Source: Rhodococcus rhodochrous
GTDB taxonomy: Bacteria > Actinomycetota > Actinomycetes > Mycobacteriales > Mycobacteriaceae
Direction of reading: 5' to 3'
Assembly (NCBI RefSeq): GCF_900187265.1
Contig: NZ_LT906450.1
Coordinates: 682,001 to 746,000 of the forward strand
DNA: 64,000 nt
In this document: positions 24,661 to 45,879 of the stretch, in pieces
Numbering within the stretch: the stretch's first letter is position 1
Layout: each line of letters opens with the position of its first letter
The notes under the pieces: model-generated
What the model saw: the letters and a program-made list of their open reading frames with translations, nothing else
The model's database searches: none
Told to the model about the DNA's origin: nothing
Translations under genes and position numbers: made by a program

Positions 24661-24745
24661 GGGATCGGCGCCGGACAGGGATCGGCGCCGGACAGGGATC
24701 GGCGCCGGACAGGGATCAGCGGCGGACAGGGATCAGCGGCGGACC
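24661..24745. repeat. Five tandem 17-bp repeats overlapping the 3' end of the TetR gene
   Basis: Unit GGGATCGGCGCCGGACA, repeated from 24661 in exact 17-bp register. Copies 1-3 are identical; copies 4-5 carry GATCAGCGGCGG and the fifth ends in C. The TetR stop codon (24733-24735) and last codons lie in the last unit, so the array looks like a duplicated gene end. It may vary in copy number between strains. Confidence 0.85.
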
Positions 24746-25314
24746 AGGATCTTCAACAGTTCCTGGATCTGTGTGGCCGTGGGGGAGGGCAGACTGTCGC
24801 GGCCGTACAGGAAGCCGATTCCCGCGTAGACGAGGGTGCCTGCACGCAGCTCCGCCTCTTCCTCGTCGAAACCCAGTTCGAGGAAACAGTTTCGGACGAC
24901 GGCCAGGATGCGCTGGTCGAGTGCGCGGACCGACTCGGCGACCTGCGGGTCGCTGCGCGCCCATTCGCGCACCGCGACCTCGGCCTCCCAGGCGCGTTCG
25001 TCGACGAGCATCGCACCCATGTGGGCGAGCCGTTCGTCGACCGGCAGTTCCTCGAGGCTCGTCAGACCGCGGGCGGCGTCGTTGTCCTGCGAGGTGTAGC
25101 GGGTGGCGATGGCCTTCATCAGGTCGTCGATGTCGGAGAAGTGCCAGTAGAAGCTACCTTTGGTGACTCCGAGGTCGTCGCACAGGCGCGAGATCTTCAC
25201 GGCGCTGCGTCCTTCGGAGACGAGCAGGCGCAGACCCGCCTCGGTCCAGTCGTCGAGGGACAACCGTGGTCGTCTGCCCGACCGGCGACCACTCCTCGCC
25301 GGTTGCTCTGCCAC
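24733..25314 (-). CDS. TetR-family transcriptional regulator next to the oxidase/HmgA block
   Basis: A 193-residue TetR protein with a basic N-terminus (RSGRRSGRRPRLSLDDW) and HTH ISRLCDDLGVTKGSFYWHF (about 40-58). The C-terminal ligand domain ends in KILVRR. GTG start. A perfect 8-bp-arm palindrome lies 13 bp upstream, between this gene and the lipase-like gene. It is a candidate regulator of the divergent 26285-35716 block, since it is the only regulator nearby; that is inference. Its 3' end lies in a tandem repeat. Confidence 0.88.
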   Translation of the reverse strand: MAEQPARSGRRSGRRPRLSLDDWTEAGLRLLVSEGRSAVKISRLCDDLGVTKGSFYWHFSDIDDLMKAIATRYTSQDNDAARGLTSLEELPVDERLAHMGAMLVDERAWEAEVAVREWARSDPQVAESVRALDQRILAVVRNCFLELGFDEEEAELRAGTLVYAGIGFLYGRDSLPSPTATQIQELLKILVRR

Positions 25315-25327: not shown

Positions 25328-25353
25328 GTCTCGATCGGATCCGAAATCGAGAC
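25328..25353. promoter_or_regulatory. Palindromic operator upstream of the TetR gene
   Basis: GTCTCGAT (25328-25335) and ATCGAGAC (25346-25353) are perfect arms around CGGATCCGAA, 13 bp before the TetR GTG. This is a likely autoregulatory site. Confidence 0.65.
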
Positions 25354-26174
25354 TACATGCCCGAACCGGACAGTGCCGTGAGGACGGCGTCGCGTGCCGG
25401 GCCGTCGTGCGGAAGTGCCCAATGGTGAACGCATGGAGACGAATCCGTCCCGGGCAGCGTGACCACCGCCGAGGCGGATAGTGCCCCGATCCCAGGTGGG
25501 ACGACGAGTCCGTCGCAGCGGGAGACGATGTCGGTGTAGTCGATCCCGGCCGTGGGCACGCCGCGCGCATGCAGGTCGCGGAGGAGATCCGATCCGGCGA
25601 TGATCTCGCGGCATCCGGCGCACAGGGGGTCGACGAGCGGCTTCTCGAGGGCGAGGACCGCATTGTAGGTGCCGAGGTCGCGGCTGATCTGCTCGGCGGC
25701 GGCCAGTCCGGCGATCTCCGTGCCGTGCCACATCGGGCCGAGGGTGGTCAGCGACCGGACCCGGTCGTTGCCGTGATCCTGCAGGTAGCGCTGGGTGACG
25801 AGGGACCCCGCGCCGTGCGCCACGACGTCGACCGTGCACCGCGATCGCTGTTCGCACAGCCCGTCCAGAGCGTAGGCCAGGTCGCGTGCGCCCGCCTCGG
25901 CCCCGCGCAGGCCGGCGAGGGGGAGCGGGACGTCGGTGCCCGCCGGTTCGCCCCAGGTCACCGGGACGGTGCAGAAGCCTGCCGCGGTGAGGTCCGCGCG
26001 CAGATCGGACCACACGTCCGGCGTGCTCGCGAGGTCGTGGACGAGCACTACCGCAGCGTCTGCGCCCGAGCACGGCGCAGGGCTCGGATCGGCCGCTGCG
26101 GGCGCCGGAGCCACCGCGCCGAGGGTGAGAACAGCGACCGTCGAAACCATCGCCGACCAGGGGAATCGAGTCAT
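25353..26174 (-). CDS. Secreted lipase-like alpha/beta-hydrolase with a degenerate nucleophile elbow
   Basis: A 273-residue protein with a Sec signal peptide (MTRFPWSAMVSTVAVLTLG, cleavage probably after APAAA near residue 29), an even number of cysteines suited to disulfides and a LIP/EstA-type fold (VVLVHDLASTPDVW, VDVVAHGAGSLVTQRYL, GTYNAVLALEK, DSSPCVHHWALP). The nucleophile elbow expected as G-H-S-x-G reads A-H-G-A-G, and the oxyanion HG reads HD, so catalysis by the usual Ser is doubtful. ATG at 26174 with GGAGGAG upstream. It is divergent from the multicopper oxidase and exported like it. Confidence 0.78.
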   Translation of the reverse strand: MTRFPWSAMVSTVAVLTLGAVAPAPAAADPSPAPCSGADAAVVLVHDLASTPDVWSDLRADLTAAGFCTVPVTWGEPAGTDVPLPLAGLRGAEAGARDLAYALDGLCEQRSRCTVDVVAHGAGSLVTQRYLQDHGNDRVRSLTTLGPMWHGTEIAGLAAAEQISRDLGTYNAVLALEKPLVDPLCAGCREIIAGSDLLRDLHARGVPTAGIDYTDIVSRCDGLVVPPGIGALSASAVVTLPGTDSSPCVHHWALPHDGPARDAVLTALSGSGM

Positions 26175-26204
26175 CTGTACTCCTCCGTGCGCACTATTGA
26201 CCAA

Positions 26205-26219
26205 ACCATACCGTATGGT
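26205..26219. promoter_or_regulatory. Palindromic operator in the divergent lipase-like/multicopper oxidase promoter
   Basis: ACCATAC-C-GTATGGT is a perfect 7-bp-arm palindrome with a 1-bp centre, 30 bp upstream of the lipase-like start and 65 bp upstream of the oxidase start. It does not match the KstR consensus. It is the candidate control site of the 26285-35716 operon. Confidence 0.65.
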
Positions 26220-26284: not shown

Positions 26285-28093
26285 ATGCAGAGACTCACCC
26301 GTAGAACCCTTCTCGCCGGGCTCGCCGCAGGAACCGGTGCGGTGCTTCTCGGCGGCCGAGCGTTCGCGGACGGGCCGGACATCTCCCGCCCCCTGTTGTT
26401 CCACTCCCCGCGACTCGACCCCTTCGTCGACGACCTTTCCCTCCTGCCGCGTCTGGACTCGTCGTCCTACCGGATCGACGCCGTCAGCACGATGCACAGC
26501 TTCCACCGCGACCTTCCGCCCGGTCCCGCCCTCGCCTACGGCGACAACACCTACGGCGGACCGACTCTCGTGGCGCACCGCGGGCAGGAGACGGCGATCG
26601 AGTACCGCAACCGCATCGACGCGCACCCTTTCGCCGTCGACTTCGACACCTCGCTGCACGGTCTGAGCGAACGCGACCGCACCGACGTCCCCACCTCGAT
26701 GCACCTGCACGGTGGGGTCACGCCTCCGGAATTCGACGGCAACCCCGAGCAGATCTCCCGGCCCGGACAGGGATTCACGTACCGCTTCCCGAACCGCCAG
26801 GGCGCGACGACGCTGTGGTACCACGACCACGCCATGGCCGTCACCCGCCTGAACGCCTACGCGGGACTGGCCGGCATGTACCTGCTCCGCGACGACTACG
26901 ACACCGGTCTGCCCGGCAACCCGCTGGGCCTGCCCGCCGGGGAGTTCGAACTCGATCTGGTGCTGCAGGAGAAGATCGTCAACGGTGACGGCTCGCAGAG
27001 CATCCGATCCACCCCGATCGTCCCGCAGGGGCGCTGGGAGGGCGGCGCGGTCGGCGATGTCGGCGTCGTGAACGGAAAGATCTGGCCCGAGGCGCGGGTC
27101 GCGCGGGGTCTCTACCGGCTCCGGCTGCTCAACGCGGCGTCGTTCAGCATCTGGGACCTGCACTTCTCCAACGGCATGCCGTTCTGGGTGATCGGCATGG
27201 AAGGCGGCCTGCTCGACGCCCCCGTCCCCACGACCCGCGTGCGACTGTCGCCCGGCGAACGCGTGGACCTGCTCGTCGACTTCGCGCAGCTCGATGCGGA
27301 CGCCACCGTCGAACTACGCAACTCCGAACCCGCCGCGCCGCAGGCCGCGCAGATCGGTGCCGTGCTCATGCCGCTGTTCATGCGGTTCCGGGCAGATCGC
27401 TCGCGAGGCTTCACCGGACCGGTCCCGGACCGCCTGCGCGGTGGTCCCGGCCTTCCGCCCGCGGTCGGGCCGATCCCGGCGCCGCAGAACGTGCGGAACG
27501 TGTCGTTGAGCCAGCCCTCGGAGGTGCGGATCCCGCCGTCGATCATGTCGCTGAACAACCTGATGTACCACAGCACCGACATCGAGATGCCGCGTCAGGG
27601 CACCGTCGAGCAGTGGAACATCGTCAATGCGACGCCCGATCCGCACCCGATCCACCTGCACCTGGTGCACTTCCGCGTGCTGGGACGGCAGGCGATCAAC
27701 ACCCTCGCGATGTGTGCACGGCAGCCGCAGCCGCCCATCGGGCTCAAGTGGACGCCCGATCCCGACCCGTACGTCGTCGAACCGATGCGGGGACCGGAGC
27801 CGTGGGAGACCGGCTACAAGGACACGGTCATCTGCGACCCGAACTCGGTGACGCGCATCGTCGCGTACTTCCCGACGGCCGACGAACTCGGCTTCGACCC
27901 CGACGCGACGTTCTCGCGCGAGGTGCACACCTTCGATCCGCACCGCGCCGGGCACACCGGACACGGTGACCACGCCGGCCACGGCGACACTGCCGGCACC
28001 GCCGGCGGCGACCTGCAGGGATATGTGTGGCACTGCCACATCCTCGACCACGAAGACCACGACATGATGCTCAAATACCGGACGGTGACATGA
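26285..28093 (+). CDS. Exported multicopper oxidase (CotA/bilirubin-oxidase-like)
   Basis: A 602-residue three-cupredoxin oxidase with a twin-arginine-like leader (TRRTLLAGLAAGTGAVLLGG). Copper-ligand motifs are visible: HLHGG near 140, WYHDHAM near 178, HPIHLHLVHF near 455 and WHCHILDHEDHDMM at the C-terminus (type-1 Cys in HCHILDHEDHDM). A His/Gly-rich loop (HTGHGDHAGHGD) precedes the last motif. Family members oxidise phenols, hydroquinones or bilirubin with O2 outside the membrane. Its stop overlaps the next start (ATGA), so it opens the seven-gene block. Oxidation of a phenolic or quinol substrate is inferred. Confidence 0.9.
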   Translation: MQRLTRRTLLAGLAAGTGAVLLGGRAFADGPDISRPLLFHSPRLDPFVDDLSLLPRLDSSSYRIDAVSTMHSFHRDLPPGPALAYGDNTYGGPTLVAHRGQETAIEYRNRIDAHPFAVDFDTSLHGLSERDRTDVPTSMHLHGGVTPPEFDGNPEQISRPGQGFTYRFPNRQGATTLWYHDHAMAVTRLNAYAGLAGMYLLRDDYDTGLPGNPLGLPAGEFELDLVLQEKIVNGDGSQSIRSTPIVPQGRWEGGAVGDVGVVNGKIWPEARVARGLYRLRLLNAASFSIWDLHFSNGMPFWVIGMEGGLLDAPVPTTRVRLSPGERVDLLVDFAQLDADATVELRNSEPAAPQAAQIGAVLMPLFMRFRADRSRGFTGPVPDRLRGGPGLPPAVGPIPAPQNVRNVSLSQPSEVRIPPSIMSLNNLMYHSTDIEMPRQGTVEQWNIVNATPDPHPIHLHLVHFRVLGRQAINTLAMCARQPQPPIGLKWTPDPDPYVVEPMRGPEPWETGYKDTVICDPNSVTRIVAYFPTADELGFDPDATFSREVHTFDPHRAGHTGHGDHAGHGDTAGTAGGDLQGYVWHCHILDHEDHDMMLKYRTVT

Positions 28094-29265
28094 CTTCCAC
28101 CAGTTCCACCACGACCCGAGACCACTTCCAGCGCATCCCGTACGAACCGGCGAACGACGGTCGCGTCGAGATGCACTCCGGGCTCAGCCGCCACTACCCG
28201 ACGCTGCACGGCAACCTCGTCGCACAACCCGGGTACTCGAAGGACGTCGGTGTGGTCATGTGCCACCCGGCCTCGAACTTCCTGAGCCACTTCCTGCTTC
28301 GCGCCTTCGCCGAAGCCGGTATCCCCGCAATGGGACTCAACACCCGCTACTCGTCCAACGAACCGGCACTCATCATGGAGCGGGCCGCCTTCGACCTCGG
28401 TACCGGAGTGCGGTGGATGGCCGACGAGCTCGGCTTCGAGAAGGTCGTGCTGCTCGGGTTCAGCGGTGGTGGATCGCTCGCGTCGTTCTACCAGTCGCAG
28501 GCACAGAACCCGACCGTGACGACCACACCCGCGGGCGACCCCGCACCGTTCGCCGAGGCGAACCTGCGACCGGCCGACGCCCTGATGCTCGTCGGCGCAC
28601 ACCCCGGCCGGGCACGCGTTCTCCGGCACTGGATCGACGGCGCGGTCACCGACGAATCCGATCCCTACGCCACCGATCCCGAACTCGACCTCTACGCCCC
28701 CGGGCGCACCGCACCGCTCGATCTCGAATGGGTGCAGCGCTACCGCGACGCGCAGCTCGCGCGGATGCGCCGCATCGACGCCTGGGCGCTCGAGCAGCTC
28801 GCCGACCTCGAACGCACGGGTGCCTCCGATCGCGGTTTCGTGGTGCACCGTACCGTCGCGGACCCGCGCTTCGTCGACCTGAACCTCGACCCGAGCGACC
28901 GCGAACTCGGCTCCATGTACGGAGATCCGAAGGCGGCCAACACCGCCGCCGGTGGTCTGGCCCGCTTCGTCACGGTGCGTAGCTGGCTCAGCACGTGGAG
29001 CGTCGACCACACCCACGCCGACGCCCTCACCGATCTCCGCAACGTCACCACCCCGACGATGGTGATGAGCCTGCTCGGCGACCAGGCGGCCTTCGCCGAG
29101 GACTCGCGGTTGATGTACGAGGCGCTCGCCGGTACCCACAACGAACTGATCGAGATGCGCAACCTCAACCACTATCTCGTGGATCAACCGGACGGTCTCT
29201 CCGACGTCGTCGGACGGCTCGTCGCGTGGATCCGCCGAACGGTACTCGAGGAGGTATCGGCATGA
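28090..29265 (+). CDS. Alpha/beta-hydrolase
   Basis: A 391-residue cytosolic alpha/beta-hydrolase without signal peptide. The nucleophile elbow is LLGFSGGGSLA (Ser near residue 127), after VMCHPASNFLSHFLLRAF (in part) and LNTRYSSNEP. A late Asp (LLGDQAAF) and His (LNHYLVDQP) complete a plausible triad. Start and stop overlap the neighbours by ATGA. It is likely an esterase or C-C hydrolase for an intermediate of the block; substrate unknown. Confidence 0.85.
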   Translation: MTSTSSTTTRDHFQRIPYEPANDGRVEMHSGLSRHYPTLHGNLVAQPGYSKDVGVVMCHPASNFLSHFLLRAFAEAGIPAMGLNTRYSSNEPALIMERAAFDLGTGVRWMADELGFEKVVLLGFSGGGSLASFYQSQAQNPTVTTTPAGDPAPFAEANLRPADALMLVGAHPGRARVLRHWIDGAVTDESDPYATDPELDLYAPGRTAPLDLEWVQRYRDAQLARMRRIDAWALEQLADLERTGASDRGFVVHRTVADPRFVDLNLDPSDRELGSMYGDPKAANTAAGGLARFVTVRSWLSTWSVDHTHADALTDLRNVTTPTMVMSLLGDQAAFAEDSRLMYEALAGTHNELIEMRNLNHYLVDQPDGLSDVVGRLVAWIRRTVLEEVSA

Positions 29266-30539
29266 CCCGAACTCTCGCAAGTCCCGGAACCACCGCACAG
29301 GACCGATGCCCGAGCGCCTTCCCCTACTGGCAGGCGCTGGAGAAGCCCGGTGTGAAGCGCACCCGCAACCTCGTCCGCCGGCTCACCGGATTCGACTTCC
29401 TGCCCACCGACGAGCAGGCCCGGGCCCTGTGCAACGACCTGTTCAGCGGCGACCCCACGGCCGAGCGCTTCGTCGACGAGGTCTACCACGGTGAACTCGG
29501 GCCGAAGAAGACCCGCGAGATGCTCGACAAGGCCCTCGTCGACGGCATCGACTCGCTCGACGACGTGCCCGACGCGATGAAGGCACTGTTCGAGGAATTC
29601 GAGACCGTGCCCGACTGGGTGCAGCCCGAACTCGTCGAACAGGGCGCCGCGATCTGGCGTCGCTGGGGCACGATGTTGTTCAGCTTCGCGGGCGCCGAGA
29701 CCCTCGAGATCTACACCGAGGCGGCCGTCGCGACACCGCTGTCGCTCGCCGGAGGCTATGCCGGCGACAACGCCCTACGACGTTTCCTCGAGACCTGCCG
29801 GTTCTGGATCGACGTATCCGAACCCGGTGCCCTGCTCACCCCGGGTTCGAAGGGGCGGGCCACCGCGCTGAAGGTCCGCGTGATGCACGTGTCGGTGCGC
29901 TCCCGTGTCGCGAAGCACCCCGAATGGGACATCGCCAAGTGGGGACTGCCGATCAGCCAGACCTACATGCTGCTCACCCTCATCGCGGGCAGCCTCACCC
30001 CGGGCCTGGCCCTGTGGACCCTCGGCTACCACACCACCCCACGAGAGATCCGCGCGCTCATCCACTTCCAGAAGTACATGGGCTACCTGCTCGGGGTGCG
30101 CATGCAGTGGTACCCCGAGACCATCGCCGACAGCATCCGCGCGCTCATGACCACCGTGATCTCCCGTTCGTACGACTCGGGTGAGCACGGCAAGGAACTC
30201 ATCGAGTCCTACCCGCAGGCGTTCGCGCCCCGCGACGGGCACCGCGGTCTGAAGAGACTGCGGGAGCACTACAACTTCCGCATCAACTCGGTGTACTCGG
30301 CGATGTTCATGGGACCGGGCACGCGACGCAAGTACTCGATGCCGAAAGTGCTTCCGTGGATGATCATCCCGATCGTCCGCTTCCCGCTCATCACCGCGAT
30401 GGAACTGGCCCGGCGGTTCGTCCCCGGCGCGGCCGGCGTGCACGAGAAGATCATGTGCGCCCACCGCGAGAACTGGTACCGCGCCCAGATGGAAGGCCGC
30501 GAAGCGCAATTCGACGCCAGCGGAGCGCTCCGGAGATAA
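29262..30539 (+). CDS. DUF2236 oxygenase (MpaB / rubber-oxygenase Lcp superfamily)
   Basis: A 425-residue, mostly helical DUF2236 protein (RRWGTMLFSFAGAETLEIYTEAA in parts near 135-160; TCRFWIDVSEPGALLTPGSKGRATALKVRVMHVSVRSRV in parts near 185-220; FQKYMGYLLGVRMQWYP). Known relatives are the b-type haem latex-clearing protein Lcp, which cleaves poly(cis-1,4-isoprene) double bonds, and MpaB, which cuts the farnesyl chain of a mycophenolic-acid precursor. The arginine-rich helix KGRATALKVR and several His are consistent with a haem site, but I cannot assign ligands. No Tat or Sec signal, unlike Lcp. Oxidative C=C cleavage of an isoprenoid chain is inferred. Confidence 0.82.
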   Translation: MTRTLASPGTTAQDRCPSAFPYWQALEKPGVKRTRNLVRRLTGFDFLPTDEQARALCNDLFSGDPTAERFVDEVYHGELGPKKTREMLDKALVDGIDSLDDVPDAMKALFEEFETVPDWVQPELVEQGAAIWRRWGTMLFSFAGAETLEIYTEAAVATPLSLAGGYAGDNALRRFLETCRFWIDVSEPGALLTPGSKGRATALKVRVMHVSVRSRVAKHPEWDIAKWGLPISQTYMLLTLIAGSLTPGLALWTLGYHTTPREIRALIHFQKYMGYLLGVRMQWYPETIADSIRALMTTVISRSYDSGEHGKELIESYPQAFAPRDGHRGLKRLREHYNFRINSVYSAMFMGPGTRRKYSMPKVLPWMIIPIVRFPLITAMELARRFVPGAAGVHEKIMCAHRENWYRAQMEGREAQFDASGALRR

Positions 30540-30578
30540 CCGGCCCGCCCCACTTCACCCTCGTACGGAGAGAACCCA

Positions 30579-31631
30579 ATGACCCTGCAGATCATCGAAG
30601 CCTGGAACGGCCCCGGACGACGCGACGGCGAGATCACCGCCGTGGAGGCCGCCGACAACGGCGCCCACCCGTCCACCGACAAGCACGCCTTCGAACACTG
30701 GTACTTCGACGCCCATCTCGACGACGGACGGATCGTCGTGGCGATGATCCAGACCCGGGAGCTGGTGCACCGCAAGCCCGGTGTGGAGATCCACGTCTAC
30801 AGCGCGGACGGCAAGCGACGCGAGGCGAGCCGGTCGTACACCGACGCCGACCTCTCGGTGTCCACCGAACGGTGTGACGTGCGTGTCGGTCAGAGCTTCG
30901 CGAAGCTCGTCGGCGAGGAGGACGGGCTGCCCGTCTACCATGTGTCGGTGTCCGAAGGAGATCTCGCCTTCGACCTGACCTTCACCGCCGAGGTCCCGCC
31001 GTGGATGCCCGGTCGTGGCCAGACCAGTTACAACGAACGCGAATTCTTCGCGTGGGTCGTCGGCGCACCCCGAGCGCGGGTCGCAGGGACGGTGACGGTG
31101 GACGGGAAGACCACCGAGGTCACCGGTCGTGGCTACCACGACCACAACTGGGGCGTCGGCGACATGAAGCGCCTCATCGACAAGTGGTACTGGGGCCGGC
31201 TGTACACCGAGGACTTCACCCTCGTCTACGCCATGGTGCACACCCAGAAGAAGTACGGCTCGCACTGGTCGCAGCCGGTGATGGTCGCGCAGGGACGCGA
31301 CGTGATCCTCAGTAACGGCGAGGTGGAACTGACGGAAGGACCGATCGTGCACAATGCGGTCGCCGACCGCACCTACCCGGCGTGGATCCGTCTCCGCATC
31401 CCGGGTTCGCTGGACGTCAAGCTCACCGTCCGCGAGATCGTGCACGCCCACAACCTGCTCGAGGACGTTCCGCTCGCGTCGAGCAGGCTGCTCAAGCCGC
31501 TCGTCAACCGGCTCGTCGGTCATCCCGGCTACTTCCGATTCCGGTCGGACTTCACGATGACGGTGACCGTCGACGGAACCGATTACGAGCGTTCGGGTTC
31601 GACGCTGCACGAGATGGTCGCGTTGACATGA
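30579..31631 (+). CDS. CrtC/AttH-like lipocalin-fold protein (hydroxyneurosporene-synthase family)
   Basis: A 350-residue protein with N-terminal [16 protein letters not shown] near 38-53 and the central motif [10 protein letters not shown] near 184-193, both hallmarks of the AttH/CrtC superfamily, followed by [17 protein letters not shown]. CrtC hydrates isoprenoid C=C bonds of carotenoids, and tocopherol cyclase is a distant relative. RBS GGAGAG. It lies 39 nt after the DUF2236 gene and overlaps the hmgA start. The presence of a second isoprenoid-type protein in this block supports an isoprenoid substrate. Confidence 0.85.
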
Positions 31632-32971
31632 GCGAGCGCGCGGACGTCGGTGCGGAGCCCGGCTGCGCGGGCATCGAGTATCTGCACGGCTTCGGCAACG
31701 AGCACCACAGCGAGGCCGTCCCGGGTGTGCTTCCGTGGGGACAGAATTCGCCCCAGCGGGTCGCGTACGGGCTCTACGCCGAGCAGCACTCGGCCACGGC
31801 GTTCACCGAGCCCCGCGAGATCAACCGCCGCACATGGACGTACCGGATCATGCCGTCCGCCGCGCACGGCCCCTTCGAGCGCATCGACGACGCCGGCTGG
31901 GTGTCGGCACCCGACTCCGGGGGAGTGCTCACCCCGAACCGGTTGCGATGGGATCCGCAGCCGGAACCGGCGCCGGGCACGGACTTCCTCGACGGCGTGA
32001 CGACCTACGCCGTCAACGGGGACGTGCGGTCCCGCACCGGCATCGCCATCCACCTGTACGCGGCGTCGCAGTCGATGACCGACCGTTACTTCGTCGACGC
32101 CGACGGAGAACTGCTGTTCGTGCCCCAGGACGGCGCGCTGCTGCTGTGCACCGAACTCGGACGTCTGCTCGTCGAACCCGGTGAGATCGCCGTGATCGGG
32201 AGGGGCCTGCGGTTCCGCGTGGACCTGGTGGGGGAGAAGGCGACCGGCTACCTGCTCGAGAACTACGGTGCCGCCCTGACCCTGCCGGAACTCGGCCCCA
32301 TCGGCGCGAACGGTCTCGCCCACGCCCGCGACTTCCTGTACCCGACGGCCTGGTACGAGGACCGTTCGGGCACGGTGCAACTCGTGCAGAAGTTCGGTGG
32401 GCACCTGTGGGCCACCGAGCTCGACCACTCGCCTCTCGACGTCGTCGCCTGGCACGGCACGCACGGTGCCTACAAATACGATCTCGGTCGCTTCAACGCG
32501 ATGACCACGGCCGGCTGGGACCATCCCGATCCGTCGATCTTCACCGTGCTCACCTCGCCCACCCCGATTCCGGGGCAGGCCAACGTCGACTTCTGTGTCT
32601 TCCCCGACCGCTGGGTGGTCGGAGAGCACACCTTCCGGCCGCCACACTTCCATCGCAACGTCATGACCGAGTTCATGGGACTCGTTCGTGGACAGCATGA
32701 CTCGAAGGCGGAAGGATTCGTTCCCGGTGGCGCCTCGCTCCACAACCAATGGGGCGCCCACGGACCCGACGTCGAGACCTTCGACCTCGCGACCTCGGCC
32801 GAACTGAAGCCGGTCAAGCTCGTGAACACCCTGTCGTTCATGTTCGAGACGAGACTGGCCCTCTCCGTCACCGACGCGGCCCACCGCGCAGCGCATCGTC
32901 AGCCGAACTACGACTCCTCGTGGTCCGGCCTCACCCGACGCTTCACCCCACCTTCTCCCCAGGAGTTGTGA
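31628..32971 (+). CDS. hmgA: Homogentisate 1,2-dioxygenase
   Basis: A 447-residue HmgA (human enzyme 445 aa) with [33 protein letters not shown] and TNRR-like [10 protein letters not shown]. Fe(II) ligands in the family's 6/36 spacing are H342 and E348 ([13 protein letters not shown]) and H378 (NQWGAHGPD). It opens the ring of homogentisate or a substituted gentisyl compound. Isomerase and fumarylacetoacetase genes are absent from the window, so the ring product must be processed elsewhere or the substrate differs. ATG overlaps the CrtC-like stop; TGATG joins it to the aldehyde dehydrogenase. Confidence 0.93.
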
Positions 32972-34446
32972 TGACCGAACTGTCCACCCCCGCACCCGTC
33001 GTCGTACCCGACCCGCAGCTGCGGATCGGCGGCCGGGCCGTGCCCGCCCGTTCGGGTGCCCACTTCTCGTCGATCAACCCGGCGACGGAAGAGGTCGTCG
33101 CCGAGGTCGCGGCCGGTGGCGCCGCCGACGTCGACGCGGCCGTCCTCGCCGCGCGCGACACCTTCGACTCCGGTGCCTGGTCGCGGATGGCCGGTGCCGA
33201 ACGCGGCCGGATCCTCTCCCGCGCCGCCGACCTCATCGAGCAGCACGCCCCCGAACTGTCGGCGCTCGAGACCGCGGAGATGGGCAAGCTCTACGCCGAC
33301 ACCGTCGCCGGGGACATCCCCGCCGCCGCGGCGTCGTTCCGGCACTACGCCGGCTGGGCCGACAAGATCGCCGGTGAGGCGATGATCCTGCCCGACGTGG
33401 GTCCGCAGCACCGCTTCGGATTCACCCTGCGCCAGCCGCTCGGCGTGGTCGGTGCGATCACCCCGTGGAACAACCCGACGGTCGTCGCGGCCTGGAAGAT
33501 CGCCCCGGCCCTGGCCGCCGGATGCTCGGTGGTCGTCAAGCCCGCCGAGGACGCCTCGCTGTCGACCCTGAAGCTCGCCGACCTGCTCGCCGAGGCGGGG
33601 GTGCCGGACGGCGCGTTCAACGTCGTGCCCGGTCTCGGCCCTGAAGCCGGTGCGGCGCTGGCCGCCCACGAGGGCATCGACAAGATCACCTTCACCGGCA
33701 GCCCGGCCGTCGGCAAGACCATCACCTCGCTCGCCGGCGAGAAGTTCCGCAAGGTGACCCTCGAACTCGGCGGCAAGGCCCCGCAGTTGATCTTCCCCGA
33801 TGCCGACCTCGAGGCGTCGCTGCCGTGGATCGCGATGGGCAACTTCTACCACCAGGGTCAGGTGTGCGCGGCGGGCACGCGCGTGATCGTGCACGAGTCG
33901 ATCGCCGATCAGGTCGTCGAGGGACTCGTCGAGTTCGCGCGCGGCGCGGTGATCGGTGATCCCTTCGACGCATCGACGACGCAGGGCACCATCGTCAACC
34001 GCAAGCAGCTCGACCGCATCCTCGGCTACATCGAGAAGGGCCGCAGCGAAGGTGCTCAGCTGCTGACCGGCGGGTCGCGGGTGGGGGAGCGCGGTTTCTT
34101 CGTCGAGCCGACCGTCTTCCGCGGCACCAACGACCTCACCATCGCGCGCGAGGAGATCTTCGGCCCCGTCGCCACGGTCATCACCTTCAGGACCACCGAG
34201 GAGGCCGTGCAGCTGGCGAACGCCACGAAGTACGGTCTCAACGCGTTCATCTTCAGCCAGAACCTGTCGACCGTGCACAGCGTGATCCCGCAGTTGCGCG
34301 TGGGCACGGTGTGGGTCAACGGCTGGGGTGTGCCCGATCCGGCACTACCCTGGGGTGGACGTGACGCGAGCGGCATCGGGCGTGAACTGGGCCGCAGCGG
34401 GCTCGAAGCGTTCACCGAGGAGAAGACGGTTCACCTCGGTTACTGA
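32971..34446 (+). CDS. Aldehyde dehydrogenase (NAD(P)-dependent)
   Basis: A 491-residue ALDH: ITPWNNPTVVAAWK (cofactor Asn), VKPAEDAS, FTGSPAVGK, catalytic Glu in LELGGKAPQ, catalytic Cys in QGQVCAAGTR, and EEIFGPVATV. It oxidises an aldehyde to an acid. In context it could use the aldehyde from oxidative chain cleavage by the DUF2236 protein, feeding the CoA-transferase downstream. The stop lies 7 nt before the CoA-transferase ATG. Confidence 0.9.
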   Translation: MTELSTPAPVVVPDPQLRIGGRAVPARSGAHFSSINPATEEVVAEVAAGGAADVDAAVLAARDTFDSGAWSRMAGAERGRILSRAADLIEQHAPELSALETAEMGKLYADTVAGDIPAAAASFRHYAGWADKIAGEAMILPDVGPQHRFGFTLRQPLGVVGAITPWNNPTVVAAWKIAPALAAGCSVVVKPAEDASLSTLKLADLLAEAGVPDGAFNVVPGLGPEAGAALAAHEGIDKITFTGSPAVGKTITSLAGEKFRKVTLELGGKAPQLIFPDADLEASLPWIAMGNFYHQGQVCAAGTRVIVHESIADQVVEGLVEFARGAVIGDPFDASTTQGTIVNRKQLDRILGYIEKGRSEGAQLLTGGSRVGERGFFVEPTVFRGTNDLTIAREEIFGPVATVITFRTTEEAVQLANATKYGLNAFIFSQNLSTVHSVIPQLRVGTVWVNGWGVPDPALPWGGRDASGIGRELGRSGLEAFTEEKTVHLGY

Positions 34447-34453
34447 CCAGAGG

Positions 34454-35716
34454 ATGGAAGAGGCAGTGACACAAGCCGAGTCGACACAAGACGGGTCGCA
34501 GGCAGCCGCGTCGCAGGCAGCGGGAGCGCTGGCGGACATCAGGGTGCTCGAATTGGGAACCCTGATCGCGGGTCCGTATGCAGGACGTCTGCTCGGCGAC
34601 ATGGGTGCCGACGTCATCAAGATCGAGGATCCGAAGCGTCCCGACCCGCTCCGCACCTGGGGACAGGGCGAGCGGGACGGGCACCGCTACTTCTGGACGG
34701 TGCACGCGCGCAACAAGCGTTGCGTCACCCTCGATCTGCGGGCACCCGACGGACAGGAGTTGTTCCGGCGTCTCGTCGCCGAGTCCGACGTGGTGGTCGA
34801 GAACTTCCGTCCCGGCACGCTCGAGAAGTGGGGACTCGGTTACGACGTGCTCTCCGAGATCAATCCGGGCATCGTGCTGGCCCGCGTCTCCGGATACGGG
34901 CAGACCGGTCCCAAAGCCGGGCAGGCCGGCTACGCGTCCGTGGCCGAGGCGGAGAGCGGACTGCGGCACCTGAACGGATATCCCGGCCAGGCACCCCCGC
35001 GACTCGCGCTCTCCCTCGGCGACTCCCTCGCCGGGATGTTCGCCGTGCAGGGCATCCTCGCCGCGCTTCTCGGCCGTGAACGGACCGGACGCGGGCAGAT
35101 CGTCGACGTGGCGCTCACCGAGGCGTGCCTGGCCATCCAGGAATCGGTGATCCCCGACTACGACGTCGCGGGCGTCGTCCGCGGCCCGTCCGGCACCCGC
35201 CTCGAGGGCATCGCCCCGTCGAACCTGTACCGGACGTCCGACGACATGTGGATCGTCATCGCCGCCAACCAGGACACGGTCTTCCGTCGCCTGTGCGCGG
35301 CGATGGAACGCCCCGAGCTCGCCGACGACCCGCGCTTCGCCGATCACCTCGCGCGCGGCGTGAACCAGGACGAGCTCGACGCCCTCATCGGTGAGTGGGC
35401 GGCGACGTGGACGCTCGACGACCTGCTGGCGCACCTGTCGTCGTCGGGTGTGGTGTCCGGTCCGGTGAACACGGTCGCGGAGGTCGTTGCCGATCCGCAG
35501 TTCCAGGCGCGCGACATGATCGTCCCGCATCACGACGAGCGCACCGGCGCAGACGTGCTCGGCCCCGGTGTGGTGCCGACGCTCACCGGGACGCCGGGTT
35601 CGGTGCGTCGCGCCGGCCCGCCCGTCGCGGGATACGACAATGCGGCGGTCTACGGCGAGATCCTCGGACTGAGCGACATCGAGCAGAAGGAACTCCGCGA
35701 GCGCGGAGTTGTCTGA
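34454..35716 (+). CDS. Family III (CaiB/BaiF) CoA-transferase
   Basis: A 420-residue class III CoA-transferase (IRVLELGTLIAGPYAGRLLGDMGADVIKIE in parts, RNKRCVTLDL, ENFRPGTLEKWGLGYD, ARVSGYGQTGP). The catalytic Asp is expected in SLGDSLAG near 207. It moves CoA between acids, activating a carboxylate for beta-oxidation. An Ala/Gln-rich N-terminal extension of about 25 residues precedes the domain; a GTG at 34469 is an alternative start. Last gene of the block, followed by a long hairpin. Confidence 0.87.
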   Translation: MEEAVTQAESTQDGSQAAASQAAGALADIRVLELGTLIAGPYAGRLLGDMGADVIKIEDPKRPDPLRTWGQGERDGHRYFWTVHARNKRCVTLDLRAPDGQELFRRLVAESDVVVENFRPGTLEKWGLGYDVLSEINPGIVLARVSGYGQTGPKAGQAGYASVAEAESGLRHLNGYPGQAPPRLALSLGDSLAGMFAVQGILAALLGRERTGRGQIVDVALTEACLAIQESVIPDYDVAGVVRGPSGTRLEGIAPSNLYRTSDDMWIVIAANQDTVFRRLCAAMERPELADDPRFADHLARGVNQDELDALIGEWAATWTLDDLLAHLSSSGVVSGPVNTVAEVVADPQFQARDMIVPHHDERTGADVLGPGVVPTLTGTPGSVRRAGPPVAGYDNAAVYGEILGLSDIEQKELRERGVV

Positions 35717-35733
35717 GGTACGCAACGCGAGGT

Positions 35734-35778
35734 GAAGGCTCGCAACGTCGGCAGTCACTGCCGATGTTGCGAGCCTTC
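35734..35778 (+). terminator. Terminator hairpin after the seven-gene block
   Basis: 22-nt arms (35734-35755 with 35757-35778) with one G-T pair. An outer partial repeat (GGTACGCAAC with GTTGCGTGCC) extends the stem. It separates the CoA-transferase gene from the KstR-controlled gene at 35868. Confidence 0.8.
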
Positions 35779-35823
35779 GTCCGTTGTTGCGTGCCTTCCG
35801 CACAGACCCATCTGGCACTAAGG

Positions 35824-35837
35824 TAGAACGTGTTCCA
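35824..35837 (+). promoter_or_regulatory. KstR operator
   Basis: TAGAACGTGTTCCA fits the KstR consensus exactly, 30 bp upstream of the ATG at 35868. Confidence 0.88.
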
Positions 35838-37552: not shown

Positions 37553-38764
37553 TCAGTTCGGCGGTGACAGAAGCCCTTCCAGGCTCGTCGCCGAATAACC
37601 ACCGTCGCGGCACAACTGTACCGTGGGGGCGCGGCGCCCCGGGTACTCGATGCACGGCATGTTCCGTGCCCCGCGCACCGCGATGGGGGAGTCCGCCGGC
37701 AGCTTGCAGTACAGATCGGGCGGGGTGTCGGGCACGTCGAACTCGGTGGGTGAGCGCCGCTGTTCCGGCGGCAGGAAGCCGGTGATGCACGGTGGCGGGT
37801 CGTTGAAGGTCGCGGTGAAGTAGGTGTTCTGCGACGGGTTGTCGACATTGGGCAGACCCGCCGACTGGGTCGACGCCATGATCGACGGGAGCAGCACCAG
37901 CATCTGTTCGAGCGACGGCCGGTACACCGCGGCGACCTGCTCGACGGTGACGAGATTGGCGAGCAGCAGGGGGAGGGTCGGTTCGGCCTCCTCGAACAGT
38001 GCCTGCACCTGTGCGGCGGCGGGGGCCGTCACGCCGAGGAGTGTGCGCACGTCGCTGTCGGAGTCGCGCAGCTGCGCGGTGGTGCCCGCCAGGGAGGACG
38101 CCCAGCGGGCGATCGCATCCGACGACGCGACCTGCGTGTCGAGCAACGGGCCGACCTGATCGATCAGCGCCGCGGTGATGTCCGCGTTCGCAGCGGCCTC
38201 GGCGCTCACCGCCGCACCGGCCTCGACGAGGATCCGCAGGGCGTCGCCGGAATCGGCCACCGCTGTGTGGGTCTCGTCGAGCAGCAGGGCGAGGCGGTCG
38301 GGACCCACGGACTGCAGCGTGGCGTCGAGCTGGTCGAGTGCACCGCCGATCGGTTCTGGCACGGAGATGCGATCGCGGGGAACGATCGAGCCCGCGGTCA
38401 GATACGGGCCGTCCTCGCCGTCGGGCAGGAACTCGACGTACTGCTCGCCGATTGCCGACATGCTGCGGATCTGCGCCGCCGCATCGGCCGGCACCGGAAC
38501 ATCCGAGTCGAGTGACAGGACCGCCTCGGCGCCGCTCGTGGTCATGGTCAGCGACGTCACCCGGCCGATCTCGATGCCGCGGTAGGTGACGTTCGCCGAG
38601 GGATACAGGCCACCGGCGTCGGTGAGGTCGAGACGCACCTCGTAGCGCCCCACCCCGAGCAGGGCGGGCACATCGACGATGAACAGCGCGACGATCAGCA
38701 CCGCCGCGATCCCGACCGAGAAGAACACCGCCAGTTTGCGGCGCAGCACCGCGGCCGGGCTCAT
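37553..38764 (-). CDS. mceF: Mce-family protein MceF, second mce operon
   Basis: A 403-residue Mce protein: one N-terminal transmembrane segment (about 11-30), an MCE/MlaD beta-barrel domain (GRYEVRLDLTDAGGLYPSANVTYRG in parts, about 38-120), a long helical region and a Cys-containing C-terminal part (PPPCITGF, YCKLP, MPCIEYPGRRAPTVQLC). It closes the heterohexameric substrate shuttle. Starts inside the mceE stop (ATGA). It lacks the extended C-terminal tail of Mce4F. Confidence 0.9.
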   Translation of the reverse strand: MSPAAVLRRKLAVFFSVGIAAVLIVALFIVDVPALLGVGRYEVRLDLTDAGGLYPSANVTYRGIEIGRVTSLTMTTSGAEAVLSLDSDVPVPADAAAQIRSMSAIGEQYVEFLPDGEDGPYLTAGSIVPRDRISVPEPIGGALDQLDATLQSVGPDRLALLLDETHTAVADSGDALRILVEAGAAVSAEAAANADITAALIDQVGPLLDTQVASSDAIARWASSLAGTTAQLRDSDSDVRTLLGVTAPAAAQVQALFEEAEPTLPLLLANLVTVEQVAAVYRPSLEQMLVLLPSIMASTQSAGLPNVDNPSQNTYFTATFNDPPPCITGFLPPEQRRSPTEFDVPDTPPDLYCKLPADSPIAVRGARNMPCIEYPGRRAPTVQLCRDGGYSATSLEGLLSPPN

Positions 38765-39855
38765 CGGGTCGGCTCCGACACGGGCGGGACGAGCAGTGAC
38801 ACCAGATCCGGTACGGGTCGCCCGCCACCGGTGAGTGCGTTCTCGAAGGGCGTGCCGAGCAGCAGTGCGTTCTCGAGGGTCGGCAGGGTGAGGTCGAGGA
38901 TGACCGTGCCGTTCGCGTAGTCGCCGCGCACCGCGTTGCGGTAGGTGTCGATGGGGAACGGGAAGGTCAGCAGGTAGCGCAACGACTCGGTGAGCGAGTC
39001 GCCCGCCGACGCGAGCGAGGCCAGCACCGGTTCGAGATCACGCAGATTCGCGACGACGTCGTCGCCGCTCGCCTCGACGACCTCGTTCGCGACGCGCCCG
39101 AACTGCCCGAGGGCGTCGGCGGCGCGGGTCAGGTCGTCGCGCTGGGTGGACAGCACCTCCATGGCGGGCGCGAGATCGTCCGTCGCCGCGGCGATCTCGG
39201 TGTTGTGCTCGGCGACCTCGACGGCGAGTGCGTCGAGCGATTCCATCGCGCTCACGATCTGCTCCTTCTGACCGTCCAGCCCGGCGAGCACCGCGTCGAG
39301 ACGGGTGAGCAGGGCCCGCACCGACTCCTGCCGCCCGTCCATCGCCCGGTTGAGTTCGCGGGTGATCTCCTGGGCCTGGGCGAGACCACCGCCGCTGAGC
39401 ACCAGCGACAGCGACGACAGGGTCTGCTCGGTGGTGGGGAACGCACCCGCCCGTTCGAGGGGGATGACGTCGCCGTCCCCGAGCCGGCCGCGGGCGGGTT
39501 CGGCGAGCGGGGGAGAGAGTTCGACGTGGGCGGACCCGAGCAGGCTCGTCTGCCCGATCTTCGCGACCGTGTTCTCCGGGAGCACCGTGCTGCCGTCGAC
39601 CATCACCGTCACGAGCGCATGTCCGTCGCCGAGCCGCAGGTCGGCGACCCGCCCGACGGTGACGTCGCCGACGCGGACCCGCGAATTGCGTTCGAGGGTC
39701 GTGACGTCGGGCATCTCGATGGTCACGGCGAAGGCGTCGTCGCCGCGACCGTGTGTGCCGGGAAGCGGCAGGCTGTTCAGGCCGCGCCACTCGCACCCGG
39801 TGGTCAGTGCCAGGCACGCGAGGACACCGATCGTGCGCAGGACTCGTGTTCTCAC
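38761..39855 (-). CDS. mceE: Mce lipoprotein MceE, second mce operon
   Basis: A 364-residue lipoprotein with lipobox LTTGC (C21), then CEWRGLNSLPLPG and an MCE domain (AVTIEMPDVTTLERNS, GQTSLLGSAHVELSPP) and a helical part. GTG start overlapping the mceD stop (GTGA). The lipid anchor tethers the Mce hexamer at the membrane. It is shorter than Mce4E, without its proline-rich tail. Confidence 0.9.
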   Translation of the reverse strand: MRTRVLRTIGVLACLALTTGCEWRGLNSLPLPGTHGRGDDAFAVTIEMPDVTTLERNSRVRVGDVTVGRVADLRLGDGHALVTVMVDGSTVLPENTVAKIGQTSLLGSAHVELSPPLAEPARGRLGDGDVIPLERAGAFPTTEQTLSSLSLVLSGGGLAQAQEITRELNRAMDGRQESVRALLTRLDAVLAGLDGQKEQIVSAMESLDALAVEVAEHNTEIAAATDDLAPAMEVLSTQRDDLTRAADALGQFGRVANEVVEASGDDVVANLRDLEPVLASLASAGDSLTESLRYLLTFPFPIDTYRNAVRGDYANGTVILDLTLPTLENALLLGTPFENALTGGGRPVPDLVSLLVPPVSEPTR

Positions 39856-41069
39856 GGCGCCCCCGGGGAGAGCAGGTCGGCCAGCGAGGTCGGCGAGTGC
39901 GCACCGGGCGCCGGCATCAACTCGGGCTCGGTGTAGACGAGCTGGTCGGGCAGCGCGCCCACGCCGCGCGTCGGATTGATGCGCACGGGCGGGTAGTCCA
40001 TCGCGAGCAGCGGCAGGATCGGGCCGAGATACTGCACACACAGCTCGGACGCGGTGTGTGCGTCGACCTGCTCGGCCGCGGCGAGCGCGGAGCACACGAA
40101 CTGGGCGGGATTGGCGAAGTTGGTCAGCGACAACGCCGAGACCACCGTGTTGTGCGCGGGCTGGTAGATGCCTTGCAGGTTCGACAACGCCGTCGGTGCG
40201 ACGTGCAGTACCTGCGCGAGCCCGTCACGCTGCGCCGCCAGGGTCTCGGTCAGTGCGGCCGTGCGATCGACGGTCGTGTCGACGCGCTCGCGGTTGTCGC
40301 GGACGAACCGCTCGACGTCGACGAGGACGGCGTCGAGTCCCGCCAGGGCGGCGCCCATGTCGTCGCGGTTGGCGTCGAGGATCTCGGTGACGGACGCGAG
40401 CCGGTCGTGGAACGAGACGATCTGATCGCCGCTCATCGACAGCGCCTCGACGAACACCTGCAGGTTGCCGAGGGTGCCGAACAGGTCGTGCCGGCCGTCG
40501 GAGATCGTGCGCATCGCCGTCGCGAGTTGCTGCAGGCTGTCGCGCAGGGCGGGACCGTGTCCCTCGGCGTTGGCGGCCGCGACGTCGAGGACCTCACCGA
40601 GCGCGCCCTGCGGGTCGGTGTCGTCGGGCCCGAGTTCGGTCGTGAGCCGCGTCAGTTGTTCGGTGATCTCGTCCCATTCGACCGGGACCGCAGTGCGTTC
40701 GACGGGAATCGTTGCTCCCACCGGGAGTTCGGGTCCTCCCGTGTGCGGTGGGGTGAGCTGGACGAAGCGTGCCGAGACCAGGGTGGGGGCGACGATCGCG
40801 GCCTGCGCGTCGGCGGGGATGCGGCGGTCGGAGTCGACGTCGAAGCGCACGAGCACGCGATCGCCGCGCGGCTCGATCTTCGTCACGCGTCCCACCTCGA
40901 CACCCATGACGCGCACGTCGTCGCCGACGTACAGGCCACGGCTCGAGGTGAATTCGGCCGCGTATTCGTCGGCCGACCGCCACGGCGCGACGGTGAACGA
41001 CACCACCGCGACGACGGCGAGAAGCAGGATCGGGACACCCCACGAGATCAGGGGACGCAGTCGCGTCAC
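39852..41069 (-). CDS. mceD: Mce-family protein MceD, second mce operon
   Basis: A 405-residue Mce protein with an N-terminal membrane anchor (LISWGVPILLLAVVAVVSF), MCE domain (FTSSRGLYVGDDVRVMGVEVG in parts, about 40-130), long coiled helices and a C-terminal segment with paired Cys (FVCSALAAAEQV, LCVQYLGPILP). Overlaps both neighbours by ATGA or GTGA. Subunit of the periplasm-spanning lipid shuttle. Confidence 0.9.
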   Translation of the reverse strand: MTRLRPLISWGVPILLLAVVAVVSFTVAPWRSADEYAAEFTSSRGLYVGDDVRVMGVEVGRVTKIEPRGDRVLVRFDVDSDRRIPADAQAAIVAPTLVSARFVQLTPPHTGGPELPVGATIPVERTAVPVEWDEITEQLTRLTTELGPDDTDPQGALGEVLDVAAANAEGHGPALRDSLQQLATAMRTISDGRHDLFGTLGNLQVFVEALSMSGDQIVSFHDRLASVTEILDANRDDMGAALAGLDAVLVDVERFVRDNRERVDTTVDRTAALTETLAAQRDGLAQVLHVAPTALSNLQGIYQPAHNTVVSALSLTNFANPAQFVCSALAAAEQVDAHTASELCVQYLGPILPLLAMDYPPVRINPTRGVGALPDQLVYTEPELMPAPGAHSPTSLADLLSPGAP

Positions 41070-42085
41070 GGTGTACCTCCCGGCGGCGTGATGCCGGCCT
41101 TCTCGAGCGCGGCGGTCAGGGCCGGCTCGATGATCTGCATGGGCAACAGGTTCTGGATGTACGAGTTGAAGAACGGGCCGGAGGCGACGGCCTCGCCGAG
41201 TTCGGTCGCGTACGGGCCCAGCCGCTCGATGGCCAGGGCGATGTCGTCGCGGTTGCGTTCGAGGATCCCGAGGACGGCGTTCAGCTTGCCCAGGGTGGGT
41301 TCGAGTTGTGCCTCGTTGTCGGCGACGAGATTCGAGATCTGGATCGACAGCGCATCGACGTTCGCGAACAGGGTCTCGAGAGCGGCTCGGCGACGGTGCA
41401 GTTCGCCGAGGATGCGGTCGGCATCGACGATCAGTGCATCGATCGCGTCGCTGCGCTCGGCGAGGACCTCGGTGACCTGTTCGGCGTGCGCGAGCAGCGC
41501 CCGCAGGGATTCGTCCCGCGACGCGACGGTCTCGGACAGTCGCCGCACACCGTCGAGCGCCGCACCGACGTCGTCGGGCGTCTCGCGCAGGGTGTCGGAC
41601 AGCACTTCCATCGACTCGCGCAGTTGCTCGGTGTCGATCGCCGCGGCGGTGTCGGTGAGATCGCCGAGGGCGTCGGTCAACTGATAGGGCGCGACGGTGC
41701 GGTCGAGGTCGATGGTGGCGCCGTCCTCGAGTCGTCCCGGACCGGCGGGACGCACGCGCAGGTTCCGTGCCCCGAGCGCGGTGGCGGTGGCGATCTCGAC
41801 GGTGGTGTCGGTGCCCAGGACCACCGCCCCGTCGACCGTGAACGTGACGGCCACGGCGTCGTGGTCGATGTCGATGTCGGTCACCCGCCCGGCGTCCTTG
41901 CCCGCGACCTGCACGGTGTCGCCGGTGTTCAGACCGCCGGCGTCGACGAATCTCGCCCGGTAGGTCGTGCCGCCGTCGAGGAACGGCAGGGAGCGGATGT
42001 TCAGGGCGCCGAGCACGAGCACGACGAGCACGATCGTGCCGACGACGCCGACACGCACGGGATTCATCTCGCGGAACTGGGTCAT
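41066..42085 (-). CDS. mceC: Mce-family protein MceC, second mce operon
   Basis: A 339-residue Mce protein: membrane anchor at about 11-30 (VGVVGTIVLVVLVLGAL), MCE domain (YRARFVDAGGLNTGDTVQVAG in parts; ATALGARNLRV) and a helical tail ending ITPPGGTP. ATGA overlap with mceB. The same position and length class as Mce4C (352 aa). Confidence 0.9.
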   Translation of the reverse strand: MTQFREMNPVRVGVVGTIVLVVLVLGALNIRSLPFLDGGTTYRARFVDAGGLNTGDTVQVAGKDAGRVTDIDIDHDAVAVTFTVDGAVVLGTDTTVEIATATALGARNLRVRPAGPGRLEDGATIDLDRTVAPYQLTDALGDLTDTAAAIDTEQLRESMEVLSDTLRETPDDVGAALDGVRRLSETVASRDESLRALLAHAEQVTEVLAERSDAIDALIVDADRILGELHRRRAALETLFANVDALSIQISNLVADNEAQLEPTLGKLNAVLGILERNRDDIALAIERLGPYATELGEAVASGPFFNSYIQNLLPMQIIEPALTAALEKAGITPPGGTP

Positions 42086-45118: not shown

Positions 45119-45879
45119 CTGCCCATCACCGCGATCCCGATCGAGGTGAGCAGCATGTTGGCGAGGAACAACGCGACGAAGGCGAAGACCACGGTCTCGT
45201 TGACGGCCTCGCCGACGCTCTTCGGACCGCCGCTGACCGAGAGCCCGCGATGGCACGCGATCAGGCCCGCGAGCAGGCCGAAGACCGCCGCCTTGATCTC
45301 CGAGAGCAGCAGCTCACCGGGACCGACGAGCAACGTGACCCCCGCGGCGTACGCGCCGGGGTCGACGTTCTGGAGTGTCACCGAGAAGAAGAACCCGCCG
45401 ATCAGGCCGATCGCGCACACCGCCCCGTTGAGCGTGACCGCGACGGCGGTCGACGCCAGTGCGCGCGGCAGCACGAGCCGGGCGGCGGGGTCGATGCCGA
45501 GTACCTCGAGCGCGGCGATCTCGTCACGGATGGTGCGGGAACCGAGGTCGGCGGCGATCGCGGTGGCGCCGGCCCCGGCGACGACCAGCACCGTCACGAG
45601 CGGGCCGATCTGTGTGATGGCGCCGAGCCCGGCGCCCGCTCCGCTCAGGTCGCCGGCACCGATCTCGAGCAGCAGCGAGTTGAGCGTGAACACGACGAGG
45701 ACGGTGAACGGGACGGACATCAGGATCGTGGGCACGAGCGACACCCGGGCGATGAACCAGAACTGGGTGAGGAATTCGCGCCACTGGAAGCGGGAGCGGA
45801 ACAGGGCGGTGAACGCGTCGAGGGACAGCGCATAGAAACCGCCGAGTGCGTGTGCGGTCGCGCGTGGCACCGATCCCAT
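45115..45879 (-). CDS. yrbEA: YrbEA permease, first gene of the second mce operon
   Basis: A 254-residue MlaE permease, the same length as YrbE4A of this window (FRSRFQWREFLTQFWFIARVSLVPT in parts; GAGATAIAADLGSRTIRDEIAALEVLGIDP in parts; GPKSVGEAVNETVVFAF). I chose the ATG at 45879, preceded by GCGAGGATTC; an ATG at 45906 is also in frame. It starts 119 bp downstream of the fadD17 stop on the same strand, with a perfect palindrome in the gap. Confidence 0.9.
   Translation of the reverse strand: MGSVPRATAHALGGFYALSLDAFTALFRSRFQWREFLTQFWFIARVSLVPTILMSVPFTVLVVFTLNSLLLEIGAGDLSGAGAGLGAITQIGPLVTVLVVAGAGATAIAADLGSRTIRDEIAALEVLGIDPAARLVLPRALASTAVAVTLNGAVCAIGLIGGFFFSVTLQNVDPGAYAAGVTLLVGPGELLLSEIKAAVFGLLAGLIACHRGLSVSGGPKSVGEAVNETVVFAFVALFLANMLLTSIGIAVMGR

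Follow-up and report, generated by a model that had tools for sequence, protein, structure and literature searches.

A TetR-linked operon of Rhodococcus rhodochrous with a proposed role in the use of imported prenyl-hydroquinones

Introduction

What substrate would bring together a multicopper oxidase (MCO), an alpha/beta-hydrolase (ABH), a predicted haem oxygenase of the DUF2236 or MpaB/Lcp family, a CrtC-like protein, an HmgA-type ring-cleavage dioxygenase, an aldehyde dehydrogenase (ALDH) and a class III CoA-transferase (CoAT)? Genes for these seven proteins lie at 26285-35716 on the + strand of a 64,000-nt stretch of the 5.27-Mb genome of Rhodococcus rhodochrous; this stretch is referred to as the window, and its coordinates are used throughout. 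A first-pass annotation had read the block as a possible catabolic pathway for a prenylated aromatic compound, with CoA activation before ring opening. We consider it reasonably probable that the block is an autonomous, TetR-linked operon for the use of an imported lipophilic, ring-alkylated prenyl-hydroquinone, or of a chromanol convertible to one. This reading is supported because the block is linked to a Mce-type importer, because its DUF2236 protein keeps haem-site residues of Lcp, because its CrtC-like protein shares the kievitone hydratase fold and shows distant kinship to tocopherol cyclase, and because the genome has separate tyrosine/homogentisate genes. The same observations support the earlier idea of prenylated-aromatic catabolism; the order of steps first suggested did not hold. 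A search of titles and abstract openings, with most subscription journals outside its coverage, found no published operon with such a gene set, and a search of the literature on tocopherol or plastoquinone breakdown gave no usable lead.

Results

All seven open reading frames (ORFs) were found in the window. Genes were called with a crude caller, and orthologs came from tblastn matches extended to ORFs whose first residue was taken as M. The packing is as tight as first described: MCO (26285-28093) and ABH (28090-29265) overlap in an ATGA that places the ABH start at 28090, ABH and DUF2236 (29262-30539) share another ATGA, as do CrtC-like (30579-31631) and HmgA (31628-32971), and HmgA and ALDH (32971-34446) meet in a TGATG. 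The remaining gaps are 39 bp between DUF2236 and CrtC-like and 7 bp between ALDH and CoAT (34454-35716). Profile searches bore out the first-pass families for MCO (PF07731, PF07732), DUF2236 (PF09995, 61.9 bits against a cut-off of 23 bits), CrtC (PF07143, 35.6 against 22.5 bits), HmgA (TIGR01015, 603 bits against an equivalog cut-off of 510.75), ALDH and CoA-transferase III (PF02515, 418 bits). The closest curated model for ALDH, phenylacetaldehyde dehydrogenase StyD, gave 611 bits, below its cut-off of 800. The hydrolase assignment held indirectly: block ABH carries a GFSGGG motif and had no Pfam match of its own, and a 41%-identical relative matched Hydrolase_4 and Abhydrolase_1.

Touching or overlapping ends, a palindrome in front and a hairpin behind indicate that the seven genes form an operon. 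The palindrome ACCATACCGTATGGT, a putative operator without strand, is a perfect 15-mer at 26205-26219, between MCO and a lipase-like gene (LIP). It is the sole perfect copy in the genome, where two further sites carry 2 mismatches. Among 44 TetR-bearing loci, a count that leaves out the same-genome duplicates L066, L069, L070, L071, L075 and L096, it recurs at no more than 1 mismatch in the promoters of 20, and each of 139 permuted palindromes was found in none. Gene order and palindrome are both conserved in other genera, and we therefore do not regard the layout as chance. In Tomitella biformata the operator also precedes the first gene of a Mce operon; genomes G057 and G094 carry it twice, ahead of MCO and again ahead of ABH, and G005 has only a 2-mismatch site. 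Behind CoAT, at 35725-35792 on the + strand, lies a hairpin of -50.9 kcal/mol (z -9.1; none of 200 shuffles as stable) that has no T run and is the probable transcript end; the terminator scan did not call it, and the promoter scan found no promoter.

The window contains four KstR-type boxes (9170, 18004, 35824 and 50027) against 0.13 expected. None lies inside the block or in its promoter, in line with the first-pass statement that the block has its own palindrome and no KstR box, and the nearest (35824-35837) stands in front of the gene downstream. With the palindrome at its front and the hairpin at its end, the block is therefore a unit distinct from the surrounding KstR-type genes. This unit also exceeds the seven genes to which it was first limited, and includes a TetR-family regulator (24733-25314, - strand; TetR_N, 37.5 bits), which is divergent from the operon and whose ortholog adjoins the block in most loci, LIP (25353-26204, - strand; start codon uncertain) and, in relatives, a Mce importer. 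We infer that the TetR protein binds the palindrome.

Conservation of the gene set was surveyed in 121 genomes of the family, with strong matches defined as at least 46% identity for CrtC-like, 63% for HmgA and 68% for ABH. Strong CrtC-like matches occur in 27 genomes and strong HmgA and ABH matches in 17 each; CrtC-like matched 51 genomes in all, and the 24 with weak matches alone were not counted as carriers. The HmgA and ABH genome sets are identical (17 genomes, 8 genera) and nested within the CrtC-like set, and the chance of this identity is 4.5e-21 if kinship is ignored. Conserved co-occurrence, the check suggested at first pass, is thus borne out across genera. Named HmgA-bearing carriers include Rhodococcus, Dietzia aerolata, Tomitella biformata and Nocardia gamkensis. 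The core consists of DUF2236 and CrtC-like, usually with TetR and in about half of the cases with MCO, and is found without HmgA in many Nocardia (most of those named here), some Tomitella, Aeromicrobium, a Solirubrobacteraceae metagenome-assembled genome, Svornostia abyssi and others. Among the matches listed, 46 loci (L099-L144) have a CrtC-like gene and no match to DUF2236, HmgA, ABH, MCO, ALDH, CoAT or TetR. Rhodococcus phenolicus (L069:8469-11441) retains full-length MCO, DUF2236, CrtC-like and CoAT matches (76-84%) and, at the expected places, a 54-residue stretch of ABH, an N-terminal piece of HmgA and a 57-residue stretch of ALDH; at least two separate losses appear to have removed the ring half there.

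The candidate importer is a Mce operon (YrbE A/B, Mce A-F) at 37553-45906 on the - strand, convergent with the block. Four of its genes were scanned and gave MlaE, MlaD and Mce4_CUP1 domains, and MlaE permeases and MlaD/Mce proteins thus stand within one operon, as in a Mce-type importer. A Mce operon is adjacent to or within the block in 15 of the 17 HmgA genomes, window included, and is linked in one of the ten genomes that have CrtC-like but no HmgA. The two HmgA genomes without a linked Mce operon are G084, where the contig ends first, and G120, where none was present in the fetched stretch. Five genomes (G005, G095, G108, G057 and G094) show a codirectional series of MCO, YrbE A/B, Mce A-F, ABH, DUF2236 and HmgA, after which come ALDH and CrtC. 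G094 and G057 have CoAT as well; the ALDH, CoAT and CrtC part of G057 sits on a different contig. In G103 the Mce genes point toward ABH and MCO is divergent. A tree of YrbA places the window operon with the block-linked ones (support 87). The window holds a further Mce operon at 51799-60639, 6 kb from the first. The label mce4 was dropped for the importer, as the trees do not cleanly separate block-linked Mce genes from this other operon; two Mce paralogs were intermixed in the MceF tree, and the YrbA and MceF trees both have long branches. The importer resembles the Mce4 sterol importer in its YrbE A/B and Mce genes, its Mce4_CUP1 domains and its linkage to catabolism, but differs in that the relatives' Mce genes are embedded in this operon behind the palindrome.

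The block HmgA proteins form one side of a branch with support 100/99. The comparison used 17 of 30 candidate loci, namely the non-block matches over the cut-off (L183-L199). Iron ligands H331, E337 and H367, together with H288, are kept in all 22 block rows (H367 in 21, one row ending at a contig end). Only columns 346 and 413 are fixed differently between the sets: at residue 346 all 22 block proteins have His and all 19 others Tyr, and at residue 413 all 21 block rows that cover it have Arg and all 19 others Leu. Homogentisate is reported to contact Tyr346, with a loop folding over the active site (PMC6337169). The HmgA and residue-conservation alignments leave out the same-genome duplicates L066, L070, L096 and L145, the latter alignment still includes L069, L071 and L075, and rows L056 and L090 read past their own stops (X at residues 453 and 437) with position 346 unaffected.

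Elsewhere in the same genome another HmgA-like gene stands beside FAH (4.84 Mb), and HPPD lies at 4.86 Mb. A MarR-like gene (by eye), the HmgA-like gene and FAH are clustered with one extra gene between, and this cluster resembles hmgRAB as reported for R. ruber Chol-4 (PMC6498646). Between the HmgA-like gene and FAH is a 311-residue protein (L046:10429-11364) with no Pfam match. The block contains neither MaiA nor FAH (MaiA was not searched for genome-wide), and the linked HPPD, MaiA or FAH expected of a canonical tyrosine homogentisate pathway is absent from it. The first-pass annotation had allowed that its HmgA might be the organism's only enzyme for tyrosine-derived homogentisate, an option rejected in view of the separate HPPD, HmgA-like and FAH genes.

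ABH paralogs (39-41% identical) adjoin a different HmgA-type dioxygenase in 10 of 10 inspected loci (L213-L222), which had been selected for nearby weak HmgA-type and ABH matches. These dioxygenases are 24-30% identical to block HmgA and gave no match at 1e-10; nine are at least 64% alike, and that of L219 is only 29% so. Across the genomes with a weak HmgA-type match alone (24-30%, R. phenolicus remnant excluded), ABH is adjacent in 10 of 13. A CoA-transferase 64-71% identical to block CoAT is present in 7 of the 10 loci and an HMG-CoA-lyase-like gene in 4. This second recurring set, sometimes accompanied by a flavodoxin-type reductase and an AraC regulator, has the appearance of a pathway for a substituted hydroquinone. 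The CoA-transferase beside ABH and dioxygenase points to an alkylated dicarboxylate, not fumarate, as the likely product of hydrolysis. Because CoAT also travels with this other ring-cleavage dioxygenase and hydrolase, we reject CoA activation before ring opening and place it, probably, after that step.

The CrtC-like protein scored 26.1 bits against the 400-bit cut-off of the CrtC equivalog (NCBIfam). Its predicted model adopts the CrtC/AttH/Diels-Alderase double-lipocalin fold over most of the protein. Kievitone hydratase (7a0q, 7a0t) is its best solved-structure sequence match and has the same fold, although identity is 15-18% and the enzyme is a fungal one that detoxifies a plant phenol. 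Kievitone hydratase acts on the prenyl group of its phenol. The match raises the probability of the prenyl-hydroquinone reading somewhat and lowers that of its rivals slightly. Profile comparison points to a distant relationship with tocopherol cyclase (hhalign E 7.3e-6, probability 84), and the motif blocks Y-x-[DE]-[HK]-N-W-G and W-x-W-G are shared with the tocopherol cyclase/CrtC superfamily. The protein differs from that superfamily in its catabolic setting, its score below the CrtC equivalog and the lack of a direct Tocopherol_cycl match, PF14249 not being among the Pfam families matched by 36 CrtC-like members at E up to 5. Tocopherol cyclase was not among the structural matches of the model, which excludes nothing. 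A separate Tocopherol_cycl (PF14249) protein is encoded at 4.007 Mb of the same genome (L240:850-2115).

In an alignment to Lcp (5o1l), DUF2236 has equivalents of the haem-site residues R164, T168 and H198 in 57 of 57 rows. We propose that it binds haem and cleaves a prenyl C=C to aldehyde and ketone, the reaction expected of the Lcp/MpaB family, from which it differs in its aromatic operon, in two residues considered below and in having no export signal visible by eye. MCO has a TAT-like signal (RRTLLAG, by eye), and its best solved relative is CotA-type. It keeps all four copper motifs in 29 of 29 rows (the last in 28, one row being cut short), as do CotA-like laccases and phenoxazinone synthase, but falls below the PhsA cut-off. 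LIP has a signal-like N-terminus by eye, is probably exported and matches the secreted lipase 5h6b (E 1.1e-10). The lipase HSQG aligns to HGAG of LIP, and in all 12 rows, that of the window among them, Gly stands in place of the nucleophile Ser; LIP is possibly a lipid carrier feeding the importer.

Discussion

For an operon that uses a prenyl-hydroquinone, the following sequence of steps is proposed. Exported MCO would oxidise the phenol or hydroquinone, which LIP may bind, and the Mce importer would carry it into the cell. The CrtC-like protein would act as a hydratase or dehydratase on the tail beside the ring, for example by dehydration at the tertiary alcohol of an opened chromanol. DUF2236 would then cut the first C=C of the tail to give an arylacetaldehyde and a methyl ketone, and ALDH would convert the arylacetaldehyde to a homogentisate with alkyl groups, whose ring the His346 variant of HmgA would open. 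ABH, standing in for MaiA and FAH, would directly hydrolyse the diketone so formed, and CoAT would activate the alkylated dicarboxylate, which, unlike fumarate, would have no direct entry to the TCA cycle. Gene content, the layout of the operon, its conserved linkage and operator, the co-occurrence pattern, the His346 substitution and the predicted fold of the CrtC-like protein are observations; every catalytic step here, TetR binding and the substrate are deduced from them.

Several observations weigh against this reading. The operator is missing at 1 mismatch from 24 of the 44 loci, 16 of them named Nocardia. Many Nocardia loci retain DUF2236, CrtC and TetR only, and the core may have another role; CoAT is absent beside HmgA and ALDH in L039, L041, L042, L063-L065 and L080; and Rhodococcus HNM0569 (L071), which retains ALDH without ABH, HmgA or CoAT, counts against a strict unit. 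The window Mce operon has no operator copy at up to 3 mismatches in 45000-53000, may be co-transcribed with KstR-type genes behind the box at 50027, and in the MceF tree three block-linked Mce operons group with the other such operon of the window. With the window operon convergent and lacking an operator, its assignment therefore rests on the relatives and the YrbA tree. Block HmgA still scores above the cut-off of the homogentisate model, Lcp K167 and E148 are not kept in DUF2236, and the best structural Z for the CrtC-like model belongs to Diels-Alderases (28.1), so that the fold by itself does not fix the reaction. The tocopherol-cyclase profile is small, built from only 3 sequences (3 of 12 loci).

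A more specific form, the catabolism of tocochromanols or plastoquinone (the vitamin E family) as plant biosynthesis in reverse, is a possibility that we put forward tentatively. MCO and the CrtC-like protein would open the chromanol ring and regenerate the double bond of the prenyl chain, and DUF2236 would remove the phytyl or prenyl tail as a methyl ketone, which for tocopherol is phytone. ALDH would yield methylated homogentisate, the His346 HmgA and ABH would produce dimethylmaleate and a beta-keto acid, CoAT would activate the dimethylmaleate, and the Mce system would import the lipid. These tocopherol-specific steps follow general chemical knowledge.

Could the block and its Mce importer instead process a sterol or a sterol-derived aromatic? 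The surroundings invite the question, with KstR-type boxes, a P450, a thiolase, an AMP-ligase, acyl-CoA dehydrogenases and two Mce operons; the Mce proteins match Mce4_CUP1, and 25-phosphosteroid lyase also has a CrtC-like fold. We nevertheless find this unlikely, as the block has its own conserved palindrome and no KstR box, and HmgA-type ring opening is not known as a step of sterol breakdown. Across 46 loci scanned, moreover, a KstR-type box beside the next gene is confined to Rhodococcus loci (L048-L052 and L090); those matched in L039, L053, L074 and L231 are located elsewhere, and that in L235 is the window's own 50027 box. The steroid neighbourhood is thus peculiar to Rhodococcus loci of this group, and a steroid role was rejected as the principal explanation.

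A purely isoprenoid substrate (terpenoid, carotenoid or polyprenyl), with the HmgA half serving a by-product, would account for the core without HmgA and for the isoprenoid substrates of Lcp and CrtC. It would leave unexplained the phenol oxidase in the core and the association of HmgA with ABH and Mce, and Lcp acts outside the cell whereas DUF2236 shows no export signal; we judge it improbable.

Ordinary tyrosine or phenylacetate homogentisate catabolism with unrelated neighbours has very little to recommend it. A score above the TIGR01015 cut-off, retained iron ligands and HmgA-type cleavage of a hydroquinone with a C2 side chain are indeed common to the block and the homogentisate pathway (HmgA, MaiA, FAH). 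The block differs in its His at the Tyr346 position, in having ABH and CoAT and no MaiA or FAH, in the linkage of HmgA to ABH, DUF2236 and CrtC-like, and in its own regulator and linked importer, and the genome has its other HmgA-like/FAH locus and HPPD. A natural-product tailoring cluster is most improbable too, for although MpaB, CrtC/Diels-Alderase and PhsA-like families are known in biosynthesis and Diels-Alderases give the highest Z in the structural comparison, no block gene encodes a scaffold synthase, and a ring-opening dioxygenase, CoA-transferase, ALDH and lipid importer indicate breakdown.

If the operon does use prenyl-hydroquinones, it would provide a genetic lead to the bacterial mineralisation of prenylated quinones and tocochromanols, which are abundant plant lipids, and would indicate what class of substrate an orphan Mce importer carries. 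It would also place an MpaB/Lcp haem oxygenase, and a protein related to kievitone hydratase and tocopherol cyclase, within a defined pathway, and would add an ABH/CoA-transferase branch to homogentisate-type ring cleavage.

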